Shown here: one piece after another, positions 1-22,932 of the stretch | Position numbering within the stretch: position 1 is the stretch's first letter | Layout of the letters: each line of letters opens with the position of its first letter | Assembly: GCF_001006305.1 (NCBI RefSeq) | Contig: NZ_LBHJ01000003.1 | Location: 62,001-126,000 of the forward strand | Reading direction: 5' to 3' | From: Silvibacterium bohemicum | GTDB lineage: Bacteria; Acidobacteriota; Terriglobia; Terriglobales; Acidobacteriaceae | Length of the DNA stretch: 64,000 nt | Program-made: the position numbers and the translations under genes | The notes under the pieces: model-generated | Database searches by the model: none | The model's input: only the letters and a program-made list of their open reading frames with translations | Told to the model about the DNA's origin: nothing

Positions 1-1686
1 CAGCGGCGAGGGGCGCAGCTCTCCGTCTTTATTGCGCGCGGCGTGGCTGATGACCACGACAGGCGCGCTGGCTGCGAGGCTGGCGGTGACGGCGCGCGAC
101 AGCTCGAAGTCGGCCTCGGGGGTGGCGTGCGGCATCTTCGTCTTTTGCTGCACGTCATAGGGAAGCAAGGCATGCATGCGGCCGCGCAACGGCCAGCTCT
201 GATCGTCCGCGCCGAGAAACCAGAGCGCGTCGAAGCGCTGACCGGAGGCCTCGAGGGCTCCCATGATCTGCACCGGAGCACCCTGCGACTCGACGGCGAA
301 GAGGGTCTCTTCGGCATGCGAGGTGAGGATATGTAGGAAATCGGAAAACGAGATCAGCCGACCGTCGAAGTCGAGCAGGGCGACATCTTCGAGCGCGCGC
401 TCCCACTTAGCCATGGCTTGAAACTGCGCAGTATCGGCGCGGCGGCCGCCGGGCCATCCGGCCTCTTTCAGAACGCTCTGGGCGAGATCGACCCATCGGC
501 TGGGCTCGCGTCTTTCATTCTGGAAATCGTTGGCGTCGACGATTTTTTCTATCTGTAACAGATGCTCGTACAAATCGCTCAACATCGGCCAGCGCGCTGG
601 ATGAAGCTGCTGACGCAAGCTGGCCAGGGAGATCTCCATCGAGAGCGAGCGAGCTTCGCGCAGCGCGGCATCGAAACGCGCCGCGGCCAGAGTTTCGGCG
701 CTGGAGCGGGTGAGGAAGCCGGAGAGCAGGAGCCACGATATCTCTTCTTCGCGCAGCGGTGCCGCGATCCAGCGCAGCAGCAGCAGCGCTGCTTTCATCA
801 CCGGGACGTCAGCGAGCGGTTGCCCTAGCGAAAATTCGAAGGGCATCCTCGCCGTGGAAGCGGAGATGTCGTCGGTCTCCGGCATCAGCACGCGGCGGAA
901 GATGCGCTCCATCTCTCCGCGCACTGCGGCGGCATCGGGAGCGACAATGCCGATGCGCATGTTTTCCCCGTTCTCGAGAAGCTGCCGCGTCCACCAGGCG
1001 CAGACGGCGATCTCGTCGCGAAGATCGTCGGCGCGCAGCAGGCGCATCGGCGAATTGTTCTGCGATTGAATCGTCGTCAAGACCGCTCCCCGACCTCGCA
1101 ATGCGCCGACCAGTGTCTCCTGGGCAGGTGTCAGGCGGTCGAAGCCGAGAAGCAGGATGTTTTCGGGGATGAGGAGCGATTCATCTGCTTTTGCTCCAAG
1201 CGCGGAGGCGATCTTGTCTTCGAGGCGGCTGTTGCTCATCCAACCTTGCCGCTGGCATTCACGGTCGAAGGCGTTTGCCCACTGCTGGAAGCGCTCGGCG
1301 TCGGTCTGGTCCCACGAACGGTTGCGCTCCGCGTGCGCTTCGTAGCCGCAGAGCAGGGCGTAAGCGCCGGCCGCGAGTTTGGCCATCCCGCGCGGCGAAA
1401 CCAGCAGGTTGGCGTCGTCGCGCTGCATGCGCAGCCAGATCTGTTGTTCCTGCAGGTCGGTAAGCAGCAGCGGAGCGTCTTCTTCGAGCAGGCTCGCATT
1501 CTGCCACAGGCGGCGAACCCAGCTGTCCCAGTCTTCAATAGGAGGTGTGGCCCAGGCCTGGCGGTCATTGGCGCGCATGTGCAGCGCGTACTCCTGTCGG
1601 AGCCAGCGGGCGGCGCGCGGGTTGGCGGTCAGAATCAGCGCTCCGCTGCGAAGGGCGCTCTCGATTTCAGCAGACAGGCGGCTCAT
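1..1686 (-). CDS. DNA repair protein of the RecB/AddB-like PD-(D/E)XK family (3' end outside window)
   Basis: The minus-strand frame stays open from an ATG at 1686 to position 1, giving 562 codons with no stop, so this is the N-terminal part of a longer protein. The start reads MSRLSAEIESALRSG and is followed by LILTANPRAARWL and IEDWDSWVRRLW. Later come LLGFDRLTPAQ, DEIAVCAWWTRQLL, and near the window edge FDALWFLGADDQSWP, KMPHATPEADFELSRA and GELRPSPL. These match my memory of the 'probable DNA repair protein' family (TIGR03623), helicase-like N-termini with a PD-(D/E)XK nuclease at the C-terminus. That nuclease would lie outside the window, so nuclease activity is inferred. Partners in this family are often AddA/UvrD-like helicases; none is visible here. 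The start lies only 30 bp from the divergent Sco gene. Family assignment is fairly secure; exact function is not. Confidence 0.85.
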   Translation of the reverse strand, partial: MSRLSAEIESALRSGALILTANPRAARWLRQEYALHMRANDRQAWATPPIEDWDSWVRRLWQNASLLEEDAPLLLTDLQEQQIWLRMQRDDANLLVSPRGMAKLAAGAYALLCGYEAHAERNRSWDQTDAERFQQWANAFDRECQRQGWMSNSRLEDKIASALGAKADESLLIPENILLLGFDRLTPAQETLVGALRGRGAVLTTIQSQNNSPMRLLRADDLRDEIAVCAWWTRQLLENGENMRIGIVAPDAAAVRGEMERIFRRVLMPETDDISASTARMPFEFSLGQPLADVPVMKAALLLLRWIAAPLREEEISWLLLSGFLTRSSAETLAAARFDAALREARSLSMEISLASLRQQLHPARWPMLSDLYEHLLQIEKIVDANDFQNERREPSRWVDLAQSVLKEAGWPGGRRADTAQFQAMAKWERALEDVALLDFDGRLISFSDFLHILTSHAEETLFAVESQGAPVQIMGALEASGQRFDALWFLGADDQSWPLRGRMHALLPYDVQQKTKMPHATPEADFELSRAVTASLAASAPVVVISHAARNKDGELRPSPL

Positions 1687-17779: not shown

Positions 17780-18493
17780 GTGATCGATCCAAGCGGCAGC
17801 AGGGAAAATGTGGGGAACGGCGGCGTCTCGCGCCGGAGATTTCTGACCTCGAGCCTTGCCTCCGGTGCGGCGATGCTGCTGGCGGCTGGCGCGGCGGAAG
17901 AGCTGTTGTCTCCTGTTCTGCTGGCGCAGAGCAGCCTTACTCCCGATGAGGCTTTGAAGGAGCTGATGGACGGCAATGCGCGGTATGTCGATGGCCGCCT
18001 CACCTACACGGACCTGAAGGAGCTGAGGGAGCATACCGTCGACAAGCAGGAGCCGTTTGCCGCCGTGCTCGCCTGCGCCGACTCGCGCGTTCCGGTGGAG
18101 TTGGTTTTCGACAAGAGCATCGGACAGATCTTCGTGACCCGCGTGGCCGGCAACGTTGCGACTTCGGAGATTATCGGCAGCCTGGAGTACGGGGCAGCGG
18201 TGCTGGGAACCAAGGTCATCCTGGTGCTCGGCCACGCCAACTGCGGCGCGGTGAAGGCGGCGATGTACGGCAACCTGGTGCCGGGCCAGATCAGCTCGCT
18301 GTTTCCACACATACAACCGGCAGTCGACCAGTCTCACCACGATCTCGACGCAGCCATCCGGATCAACGCCAGGATTCAGGCCGACCTGCTGAGCAAGGCA
18401 TCGCCAGTGCTGTCGGAGATGCTGAAAGATGGCAAGCTCAAGATCGTTGCTGGATACTACGATCTGGCTTCGGGGAAGGTTACGCTGCTTTGA
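17780..18493 (+). CDS. Tat-exported beta-class carbonic anhydrase
   Basis: A 237-residue protein that interconverts CO2 and bicarbonate. The N-terminus contains SRRRFLTSSLASGAAMLL, a twin-arginine signal, so the enzyme is probably periplasmic. The beta-CA zinc site is present: Cys, Asp and Arg in LACADSRVPVE and His...Cys in LGHANCGAV. The ending IVAGYYDLASGKVTLL is also typical. The GTG at 17780 is preceded by AAGGAG with ~7 nt spacing. Most beta-CAs are cytoplasmic; the Tat-exported form is known in several Proteobacteria and Acidobacteriota. It is monocistronic. Confidence 0.93.
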   Translation: MIDPSGSRENVGNGGVSRRRFLTSSLASGAAMLLAAGAAEELLSPVLLAQSSLTPDEALKELMDGNARYVDGRLTYTDLKELREHTVDKQEPFAAVLACADSRVPVELVFDKSIGQIFVTRVAGNVATSEIIGSLEYGAAVLGTKVILVLGHANCGAVKAAMYGNLVPGQISSLFPHIQPAVDQSHHDLDAAIRINARIQADLLSKASPVLSEMLKDGKLKIVAGYYDLASGKVTLL

Positions 18494-18544
18494 TAATGCC
18501 GAGCCTTGTGGAGATGGATAATACGTAATGCGGATCGCCTCCCC

Positions 18545-18573
18545 TTGACGAGCTTCCGCCTCTGTCTTAATCT
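18545..18573 (+). promoter_or_regulatory. Promoter of the structured RNA gene
   Basis: TTGACG at 18545-18550, exactly 17 bp, then TAATCT at 18568-18573. This is the best sigma-70-type promoter in this part of the window and points into a stretch without any protein-like frame. Start of transcription is expected near 18580. Confidence 0.7.
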
Positions 18574-18579
18574 GCGGGT

Positions 18580-18918
18580 ACACGGGAAAGGAGGATGATC
18601 CAGCCTATGACAAGTTTTGAAGGTAGTAGTTGCACCCATCAACGTGAGGTGACTGAGGCTTAGAGCGCGCCCTTAGCTCTAGAGCGTGTTTCATCGCTGG
18701 GATTGAGGCTTCGGGAGGCTTCCCGAGCCCCGCTTTAACGGCGGGTCTCGCATGCGGCCCGGTCAATTTCCGGTGTAGATGAAACACTCTCGTAGTCCTG
18801 ACGTCCGCAGCATAGTCGTCGAGGCCCATCCGGAAAGCGAGGGTGCCTCAGGTCAAACTCCACAGCTCACCGGTGATCAAGGCCCGCTTTGCCCTATGTG
18901 GCAGCGGGCCTTTCACAT
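18580..18918 (+). ncRNA. Candidate structured noncoding RNA, ~335 nt, unassigned
   Basis: The unit has a promoter upstream, no credible reading frame, and a terminator at its end. Paired segments visible by eye include a perfect 10-bp long-range helix (GTGTTTCATC at 18686-18695 with GATGAAACAC at 18778-18787), enclosing three hairpins (18707-18729, 18730-18744, 18759-18773). Outside it are a hairpin at 18661-18681 and a closing helix CTGAGGC (18653-18659) with GCCTCAG (18845-18851). A GTTG/CAAC hairpin lies at 18629-18643. It lacks the conserved cores I would expect of RNase P RNA, tmRNA or SRP RNA, and is long for 6S RNA. It could also be a leader of the YdeI-like gene, but the terminator argues for an independent RNA. 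Confidence 0.6.
18879..18914 (+). terminator. Terminator of the structured RNA gene
   Basis: AAGGCCCGCT (18879-18888) pairs with AGCGGGCCTT (18903-18912); an inner GCC/GGC pairing continues the stem. The trailing bases are TTTCACATTT, a weak U-tract. Confidence 0.65.
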
Positions 18919-18923
18919 TTGAG

Positions 18924-19043
18924 AACAGCTTTTAGCTTCCAGCCATTTGCTCTTTGACTTTGCGCTTCGATGGGCGCGGAGAAATCTCTGGCTTGCGCTC
19001 AGAAAACCAGCTAAAAGCTAGGAGCTAGAGGCTAAGAGCTGTT
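18924..19043. repeat. Imperfect inverted repeat with a 7-bp tandem array
   Basis: A 20-bp arm at 18924-18943 (AACAGCTTTTAGC...) matches the inverse of 19024-19043 at about 17 of 20 positions. The right part, 19009-19041, reads as consecutive heptamers AGCTAAA, AGCTAGG, AGCTAGA, GGCTAAG, AGCTG. The element ends 3 bp before the ATG of the next gene, which therefore lacks a normal Shine-Dalgarno. Confidence 0.65.
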
Positions 19044-19046
19044 TTT

Positions 19047-19748
19047 ATGGCCAAATCCGCCAAAACCTTCAAGGCCACGCTGAAACCCGACGGCACGCCT
19101 CTGAACTGGACCGTAGTTTCGGTGCCGCGCTCCGTCATAGACGGCCTGGGAGAGGGGAAACGGCCACGAGTCAGAGGCGAAATCAACGGCTTTTCTTTTC
19201 GAACCTCTCTTTTCTCAAACGGGAAGGGCGATTTCACTCTGCTGGTGAATAAGAAAATGCAGAAGGCAGTGGGAGTGACGCTGGGTAGCGTGGCGGAATT
19301 TCGGCTGGAGCCGGATGTGGAGGCGCGGGCCGTGGCCATGCCTCCAGAGCTGAAGAGGGCGATGGCCGCTTCTGCGGCGCTGCGCAAGTATTACGACAAG
19401 CAGTCGTACAGCTTCCATAAGTATTCGTCCGGCATGATTACGCAGCTGAAAAGCGCCGAAGCGCGCACCCGGCAGGCCGAGCGGCTGGCGGAGATATTTC
19501 TGGCCATGTTGGAGGGCGAGAAGGAACCGCCGCCAATTCTGCAGGCGCCTTTCGTTCGCAATCCCCTGGCTGCGCAGGGATGGAAGCAGATGACCGAGGT
19601 CCAGCGGCGCGGGCATCTGTGGGGAATCTTCTATTACCTCTCTCCGGAGAGCCGCCAGAAGCGGGCGGACAAGGCGGTTGCAGAGGCAGTTCGGATTGCC
19701 AAGACCAAGAGACAGGCTGGCGGCTTTAAAGAAGATCCTGAATTATGA
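19047..19748 (+). CDS. DUF1905 / YdeI-OmdA family protein
   Basis: A 233-residue cytoplasmic protein. Residues 5-90 form a DUF1905 beta-domain (FKATLKPDGTPLNWTVVSVP, GFSFRTSLF, LLVNKKMQKAVGV). Residues ~100-220 match the YdeI/OmpD-associated helical domain with ELKRAMAAS, a WGIFYYLSPESRQKRADKAV segment and a basic C-terminus. YdeI-like proteins have been linked to resistance to cationic peptides and bacteriocins, but the mechanism is unclear. No Shine-Dalgarno precedes the ATG; the bases there are TTTTT after the inverted repeat. Its last codons overlap the first half-operator of the toxin-antitoxin pair. Confidence 0.85.
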   Translation: MAKSAKTFKATLKPDGTPLNWTVVSVPRSVIDGLGEGKRPRVRGEINGFSFRTSLFSNGKGDFTLLVNKKMQKAVGVTLGSVAEFRLEPDVEARAVAMPPELKRAMAASAALRKYYDKQSYSFHKYSSGMITQLKSAEARTRQAERLAEIFLAMLEGEKEPPPILQAPFVRNPLAAQGWKQMTEVQRRGHLWGIFYYLSPESRQKRADKAVAEAVRIAKTKRQAGGFKEDPEL

Positions 19749-19773
19749 CCATGGTATTATGACCATAGTCATA
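19744..19773 (+). promoter_or_regulatory. Toxin-antitoxin operator (duplicated palindrome)
   Basis: TATGAC-N4-GTCATA at 19758-19773 is a perfect inverted repeat. A decayed copy, TATGACCATGGTATTA, precedes it at 19744-19759. The pair lies directly before the antitoxin start, where Phd/YefM-type antitoxins usually bind to repress their own operon. Confidence 0.7.
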
Positions 19774-19787
19774 TTGGAGCTGATTCC

Positions 19788-20060
19788 GTGAAAACCATGC
19801 CGGCAGGGAAGTTCAAGGCGCAGTGTTTGGCCGTGATCGATGAGGTTCACGAGCGGGGTGAAGAAGTTGTGATCACCAAGCATGGGAAACCTATGGCTCG
19901 GCTGGTGCCGCTGACGGAAAATCAGGAAAAGCCCGACGACATCTTCGGTTTTATGCTTGGCAAGGGGAGGATTACAGGAGATATCGTTTCCCCCATCTTC
20001 AAGGAAGAAGAGTGGGATGAAGATGTATTTCCTCCGGGCTTTCGAGATGAATCGAAGTGA
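19788..20060 (+). CDS. Phd/YefM-type antitoxin
   Basis: A 90-residue antitoxin. The N-terminal ~55 residues are a Phd/YefM DNA-binding fold: MPAGKFKAQCLAVIDEVHERG, EVVITKHGKPMARLVPL. The C-terminal part (DDIFGFMLGKGRITGDI, then an acidic EEEWDEDVF) would wrap the toxin. The GTG start at 19788 has TTGGAG 8 nt upstream. The stop overlaps the toxin start as GTGA, giving translational coupling. It should neutralise the PIN toxin and repress the operon through the palindromes upstream. Confidence 0.93.
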   Translation: MKTMPAGKFKAQCLAVIDEVHERGEEVVITKHGKPMARLVPLTENQEKPDDIFGFMLGKGRITGDIVSPIFKEEEWDEDVFPPGFRDESK

Positions 20061-20449
20061 TTTTGATCGATACGCACGTCGTTCTTTGGCTTGCGCTCCA
20101 TCCTGATCGAGTTTCTACTCGGGCGGCGGAAACTATCGCACAAACACGCGAGCTGAAGGCGGAGATTCTTGTTTCGACCGTTTCTCTCTACGAGATCGCG
20201 GTGGCATCGACTCGAAATCGGATAGAACTCGACGTCACCCTCCCGGCTTTTCTTCAGCGAGTGAGGGAGTTCTTCCGCATCAGGGAGATCGACCACAGAA
20301 TCGCAATTGCGGCCGCAGGGTTCATGCCGCCCTTCCCTGGAGACCCGATGGATCGCATCATCGCCGCTACCGCTCTTACGGAAGGCATTCCGCTGGTCAC
20401 GGCTGATGAGCGTATCCGGCGCAGTGGCGTTGTGAACACCATCTGGTAG
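20057..20449 (+). CDS. PIN-domain (VapC-like) toxin
   Basis: A 130-residue PIN ribonuclease. Acidic catalytic residues are visible: Asp5 in LIDTHVVLW, a Glu in VSLYEIAVA, Asp in [12 protein letters not shown], and Asp in VTADERI. This set binds Mg2+/Mn2+ in VapC enzymes, which cleave tRNA or rRNA. The start is a GTG overlapping the antitoxin stop. Pairing of a Phd/YefM antitoxin with a PIN toxin is a known combination. The downstream thiG is only 22 bp away but functionally unrelated. Confidence 0.93.
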
Positions 20450-22875: not shown

Positions 22876-22932
22876 GGGCTTGATTCAGCGGTTTTCGATC
22901 AGCGAAAGCCGGCAGGGCTAAAGGAGGTGTCC

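Follow-up and report, generated by a model that had tools for sequence, protein, structure and literature searches.

A probable stand-alone structured RNA gene with a conserved mini-frame, a diverged relative of Ms_IGR-5

The window (the whole stretch of DNA analysed, 64,000 nucleotides) was found to hold a promoter, a structured RNA and a terminator at positions 18545-18913, where Rfam gives no match. Judged from sequence comparison, the RNA most likely has a stand-alone gene of its own and belongs to a diverged branch of a class resembling Ms_IGR-5, to which it is distantly related. It contains a short reading frame with conserved start, phase and stop. We lean slightly towards the reading that translation of this mini-frame gates the fold of the RNA, which would act in trans as a regulator responding to translation status.

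Promoter, transcript and terminator

The features of the gene are collected in Table 1. The predicted promoter was found in place, and the form TTG[AC]NN-16..19-[TC]AnnnT occurs upstream of 64 of the 65 distinct homologues in the window's family (100 shuffles: mean 1.3, maximum 4). A stock consensus scan listed neither a promoter nor a terminator for the locus and therefore the support for the promoter is comparative. Transcription probably starts near 18580. The terminator was likewise borne out, as its GC-rich stem GGCCCGC/GCGGGCC is present in the window and aligned in 16 relatives. The proposal of a structured RNA also stood: the fold of 18580-18918, insert included, has a z-score of -2.47, with 2 of 100 shuffles equally stable. 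The gene is flanked upstream by SecG and carbonic anhydrase and downstream by DUF1905/OmdA, a Phd/PIN pair, ThiG and RuvC (Pfam).

Table 1. Positions of the features of the RNA gene in the window
Feature	Position	Strand	Basis or remark
Promoter: -35 TTGACG (18545), 17-nt spacer, -10 TAATCT (18568)	18545..18573	+	Positions and conservation
P0 5' strand, CACG; pairs with 18643-18646 (CGUG)	18581..18584	+	RNAalifold on 16 relatives without the window
Extended Shine-Dalgarno, GAAAGGAGG-a-TGATCCAGCC	18586..18605	+	19 nt complementary to the 3' end of the genome's own 16S rRNA, one bulged A
Mini-frame, ATG + 17 codons + TAG (MTSFEGSSCTHQREVTEA)	18607..18663	+	Start, frame and stop conserved across homologues
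P1 5' strand, GGUGACUG, within the last mini-frame codons	18648..18655	+	Pairs with 18863-18871, one bulged C; covariation
Stop-codon hairpin, UAGAGC-loop-GCUCUA	18661..18681	+	Seen directly, by eye
Insert, 113 nt, TAG..TAG flanks, containing the 10-bp terminal helix 18686-18695/18778-18787	18683..18795	+	Absent in 16 aligned relatives; single copy in the genome
3' core: GCCU, conserved bulge, CAG-c-UCACC (P1 3' strand 18863-18871)	18845..18871	+	Alignments, R2 aligned to the window, covariation
Terminator hairpin, AGGCCCGC...GCGGGCCUUU	18880..18913	+	Positions; stem aligned in 16 relatives

The extended Shine-Dalgarno and the mini-frame

The 3' end of the 16S rRNA in the same genome reads ...GGCTGGATCACCTCCTTTCT, its mature end being assumed, and the complementarity to it presumably extends to the strand beside helix 45. 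The 16-letter core of the element has no other match in the window at up to 2 mismatches, and 13 of 100 shuffled windows contain one. Its longest unbroken complementary run is 10 nt and is equalled at 22920, upstream of a frame at 22927. What is unusual is the whole stretch and not its 10-nt run. Extended Shine-Dalgarno pairing is reported to be productive in S. aureus (PMC13009471).

The original prediction described the transcript as frame-free, a view that the conserved 18-codon frame does not sustain. Conservation of the frame was assessed in 201 RNAs, namely the fetched loci that match the motif [AG]A[AG]GGAGG ... G[TC]GAGGTG, with one taken per distinct core and no frame required. The Shine-Dalgarno is part of this selection motif and the features of the class are those defined here, not by Rfam. 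The window's family supplied 65 of these RNAs and the rest of its phylum 17, while 119 came from among the pattern-scan matches listed. Homologues with other letters, for example that of G232 (TTGAGGTG), fall outside the count and four RNAs with an earlier inner GCGAGGTG were anchored on the last GTGAGGTG. An in-frame start 6-14 nt past the Shine-Dalgarno, open as far as GAGGTG, was observed in 200 of the 201 RNAs, many of which are close relatives and not independent, against a mean of 19.9 and a maximum of 33 with shuffled spacers; the second frame gave 3 and the third none. The frame was kept group by group (family 65/65, rest of the phylum 17/17, pattern scan 118/119). The stop was located exactly five codons past the GAG in all 200 testable RNAs (TAG 182, TGA 9, TAA 9), L210 being excluded as it runs off its stretch. 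Frame length ranges from 11 to 22 codons. The window RNA itself has the Shine-Dalgarno, the in-frame start and the fixed stop that define the class here. In G016, where the stop is TGA, the pairing of the stop-codon hairpin is retained.

The open frame could in principle be a side effect of structural constraints on a purely non-coding RNA. The last codons are indeed fixed by the pairing of P0 and P1, and one homologue of the 201 (L201) has no ATG, GTG or TTG start. However, the start varies between these three codons and yet keeps its distance and phase far beyond the roughly 20 RNAs expected from shuffling, which makes this explanation very improbable.

Synonymous changes form 268 of the 1055 codon changes in the variable part of the frame in the window's family and 1345 of 4853 among the named loci. 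A share of about a quarter is roughly what chance would give. By codon position, the changes number 319/512/562 in the family and 2680/1911/1658 in the named loci, and it is only in the family that third-position changes are somewhat raised. The peptide letters were observed to be widely variable except in P0/P1 and, in other clades, in the pseudoknot. The reading frame is maintained, with no clear selection on the peptide. The RNA might instead be a very short mRNA whose product is a peptide of 11-22 residues, with the 3' structure merely stabilising the message. The conserved start, frame and stop, the strong Shine-Dalgarno and the somewhat raised third-position changes in the family would suit such a message, but the variability of the peptide, the low synonymous share and the conservation of the 3' core across phyla would not, and we consider this explanation improbable.

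Conserved helices, the 3' core and a pseudoknot in other clades

RNAalifold, applied to the 16 relatives without the window, returned P0, P1 and the terminator stem. In 5 of the 24 pairs both partners have changed in at least one place; the covariation term (R1) is small, at -0.38 of -18.4 kcal/mol. P0 surrounds the Shine-Dalgarno element together with most of the mini-frame. Its closing pair was observed as GC in 10 of the 16 relatives, UA in 3, CG in 2 and unpaired in 1. Among 87 sequences the corresponding counts are GC 58, UA 10, AU 7, GU 6 and CG 4, with 2 unpaired, and 3 of the 65 family RNAs have it unpaired. When the 87 sequences were placed on R2, an alignment fitted to the structure and therefore biased in its favour, 81.5% of the P0 and P1 cells were paired and 63 cells were doubly changed compared to 12.9 after shuffling. 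The covariation score of this alignment was 0.225 against 0.124 in the shuffles, none of 500 of which reached it, and slid controls gave 0.021-0.071. A MAFFT alignment of 40 sequences gave similar values (83.9% paired; 26 doubly changed cells against 8.8; score 0.219 against 0.127), with 33 of 500 shuffles attaining its number of doubly changed pairs. The inner pairs of P1 are unpaired in 45-58 of the 87 rows, partly from a one-base shift in register between clades. Covariation supports both P0 and P1, with the inner pairs of P1 in a common register in a minority of rows. In addition, the GCCU of the 3' core may pair with AGGC at 18656-18659.

Outside the window's family, the 5-mer that immediately precedes the P0 3' strand is followed within 110 nt by its reverse complement in 79 of 128 RNAs (of 136, 128 were used), compared to 19% with mismatched partners, and the signal is confined to that register. 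The 5-mers include GGACT, GGACG, GGACA, GGATG and GGACC, among others. A pseudoknot between the frame codons (GGACN) and a 3' hairpin loop is therefore likely in these clades, where it would form the clearest tie between the frame and the 3' end. Within the window's family it was not detectable (7 of 63 against a control of 8%, the ends being set by the conserved bulge motif in 63 of 65 RNAs), and at the terminator hairpin of this family the pseudoknot hairpin of the other clades is not recognisable as such.

Relation to Ms_IGR-5 and to other known RNAs

No Rfam family reaches its gathering score in the window, and none is found at E<=5 in 18490-19050. The Ms_IGR-5 model (RF02471) has no match at E<=0.01 in the genome carrying the window and none at E<=5 in 18490-19050. 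As the window stays below the gathering cut-off by which Rfam defines membership, its RNA is not filed in RF02471. Among 15 chosen scan loci, Rfam identified eight as Ms_IGR-5 (seven actinobacterial and one from Zixibacteria) and seven had no Ms_IGR-5 match. Across 297 genomes of the window's phylum, RF02471 matched in 17 at E<=0.01, two of them above the cut-off, and in none of 14 controls. In 14 of these 17 genomes its match coincides with that of our covariance model R1, three of the 14 belonging to the window's family; the RF02471 matches in G505 were set aside for want of confirmation by R2. For the second model, R2, 40 sequences were chosen, all outside the window's family; it finds the window RNA with 41.1 bits (E 4.9e-9) and nothing else in the 64 kb up to E 10. 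In the whole genome the same locus alone was found (36.6 bits, E 6.5e-6). Because RF02471 and R1 coincide in this way and R2 finds the window without the help of its family, we place the RNA on a diverged Ms_IGR-5-like branch; on the sequence evidence it shares descent with actinobacterial Ms_IGR-5. The suggestion of a new or poorly known Acidobacteriota RNA class hence holds in that the RNA is structured, conserved and poorly known, but it is not limited to Acidobacteriota, being a relative of RF02471 with matches in other phyla.

Both RNAs have P0 around the Shine-Dalgarno and mini-frame, P1, a conserved bulge before CAG..CACC and a fixed stop. They differ in that the frame has 12 codons in 100 of 118 named loci but 18 in the window RNA, and in that TGGTCC follows GGAGG where the window RNA has ATGATCC. 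Furthermore, the window RNA has no detectable pseudoknot, carries a 113-nt insert and lacks an RF02471 score.

Expression and ribosome association are reported for actinobacterial homologues only. The transcript was validated by RNA-seq in S. lividans (PMC8079986) and coincides with a transcription unit in S. avermitilis (PMC8780764). Ribosome-protected reads on homologues in M. abscessus and M. smegmatis are reported in passages of PMC4974804, which also caution that ribosome footprints occur on many non-coding RNAs. This protection, together with the 19-nt complementarity to the 16S 3' end, would fit a decoy or hibernation RNA, one that ties up 30S subunits through its long pairing with the 16S tail and uses the frame solely to hold them at a start or stop. 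Such a role is rather unlikely, since it would have no need of a complete frame with an exactly placed stop and since conservation extends to P1 and the 3' core.

The frame, the 16S complement and the pseudoknot are not described in the passages on Ms_IGR-5 that were examined, including those of PMC4974804. Literature searches with the core DNA string and with actinobacterial peptide ends found no relevant paper, and those for an anti-SD with a short ORF in a structured RNA, or for small RNAs of Acidobacteria, found nothing fitting among the matches listed. No intergenic small RNA linked to Rv0812 was found in the literature search. A term search of PMC11077062 gave no mention of IGR, Rfam or pabC.

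The claim that the cores of RNase P RNA, tmRNA and SRP RNA are absent was confirmed, as no Rfam model for them matches in the window or at the locus. For tmRNA, neither Rfam nor ARAGORN recognised anything at the locus and tmRNA genes are located elsewhere in the genome. As in tmRNA, a short frame lies inside a structured RNA, but the window RNA has its own Shine-Dalgarno and start codon. Like 6S RNA and Ms1, the RNA has a gene of its own, is structured and measures a few hundred nucleotides; no 6S model matches at the locus and the 6S gene is found at C4:111256-111444. The likeness to Ms1 is drawn from its published description (PMC9130861). In G000, two full-length tmRNA matches lie above the Rfam cut-off, at C12:894218-894570 (180.7 bits) and C12:695697-696051 (157.6 bits).

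Distribution

The original prediction looked to covariance for homologues, and these were found. Of 300 genomes sampled from the window's family, R1 has a match in 262 (two matches in 7 of these), and of the 207 good ones in 188; the RNA is near-universal in this family. In the phylum sample, R1 matched in 47 of 297 genomes, 31 within the family and 16 outside it; one of the 16 (G450) lacked the motifs on reading and was counted false. R2 matched in 67 of the 297 (31 family, 36 outside), in 118 of 296 genomes from the phylum of a Nocardioides genome and in 46 of 132 from that of a Zixibacteria genome, and from these counts the distribution outside the window's family is patchy. R2 also gave one match in each of 11 chosen genomes.

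R2 recovers all of the 87 loci given, 48 of them outside its build, although its score is partly built in for loci selected by pattern. For L138, L147, L212, L223, L228 and L238 it gives only 31-37 bits, which derive from the pattern-selected 5' half, the 3' core of these loci not being established. In L138 (2284-2685, minus strand), from an Acidobacteria MAG, the homologue is followed directly by a bacterial RNase P RNA gene on the opposite strand. A pattern scan of contigs gave at least 120 stretches, mostly from Actinomycetota among the matches listed; these matches also include a few from Acidobacteria or Terriglobia, Rokuibacteriota, Zixibacteria, Nitrospirae, Myxococcales, Eisenbacteria, GN15, Binatota and 'Proteobacteria'. 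Because the RNA is kept, mostly as a single copy, in most sampled genomes of the family and is common to distant phyla, it likely serves something basic.

The downstream gene thiG

Of 21 loci in the window's family, 16 have thiG downstream on the strand of the RNA (15 of the 20 searched by tblastn, and the window), and in 14 of the 16 it lies within about 15-400 nt. Outside the family 15 loci were examined and none has it; the downstream genes vary there and may be on the opposite strand. Leader-peptide attenuators likewise combine a short frame that overlaps helices with a terminator behind it. A similar attenuator in cis, in which translation of the frame decides whether the terminator forms and thereby controls the downstream gene, is suggested by the frequent presence of thiG close by in the family. 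This arrangement is nonetheless rather unlikely: the class has no constant downstream gene across clades, and in the window thiG is separated from the RNA by a DUF1905/OmdA gene and a Phd/PIN pair. These genes, with the pair identified as Phd/YefM antitoxin and PIN toxin, occupy 19047-20449; RNA and thiG are close neighbours in most relatives examined.

Proposed mechanism

The favoured reading, that of a stand-alone RNA acting in trans, builds on what the comparisons give: the conserved promoter and terminator, the 16S-complementary element, the fixed phase and stop, P0/P1 and the homology to Ms_IGR-5. In this scheme 30S subunits would load on the extended Shine-Dalgarno, and translation of the 11-22 codons would open P0 and P1, along with the pseudoknot where other clades have it. 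The stop codon is located a few nucleotides past the P1 5' strand. A ribosome at this invariant stop would cover that strand and so free the conserved 3' segment with its bulge and CAG..CACC. The fold, the stability or the availability of the 3' segment could then report that a ribosome has started and finished, with the peptide as a by-product, and the RNA may act on an mRNA, the ribosome or a protein. Since the start, phase and stop are kept while the peptide is under no clear selection, the act of translation itself would be the signal.

We also suggest, more tentatively, a so far unrecognised multi-phylum class of translated structured RNAs of which Ms_IGR-5 is only the actinobacterial branch. 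In all its members the long complement to the 16S tail would load a ribosome, the peptide would be irrelevant and the ribosome terminating at the fixed stop would switch the fold, which would make the RNA a general sensor for the availability of ribosomes or for termination. Through this relationship the little-studied actinobacterial sRNA Ms_IGR-5 would acquire a reading frame and a conserved structure as well as a broader distribution, and the idea is testable because relatives occur in Streptomyces and M. smegmatis.

The insert in the window RNA

The 10-bp helix 18686-18695/18778-18787, on which the original prediction had centred the structure, does pair perfectly but is not part of the conserved core. 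It lies inside the lineage-specific insert and was dropped from the conserved RNA, of which P0 and P1 are the helices, as the insert is missing in the aligned relatives. The conserved parts correspond to 18572-18682 and 18793-18920 of the window and are near each other in the relatives. A BLAST search over 61 genomes, that of the window included, gave matches in 18; the match in one of these (G040) falls only on the insert and is probably due to chance. No second copy of the insert was found in the genome carrying the window.

The ends of the insert are inverted (GTGTTTCATC/GATGAAACAC) and it may be a small mobile element or an expanded hairpin. Some other members were observed to have different extra sequence in the same region. 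In G114, the 5' and 3' cores of the homologue at L098:3039-3410 (G114:C54:168038-168409) are separated by a middle part of unusual length, and R1 finds this homologue as two overlapping matches.
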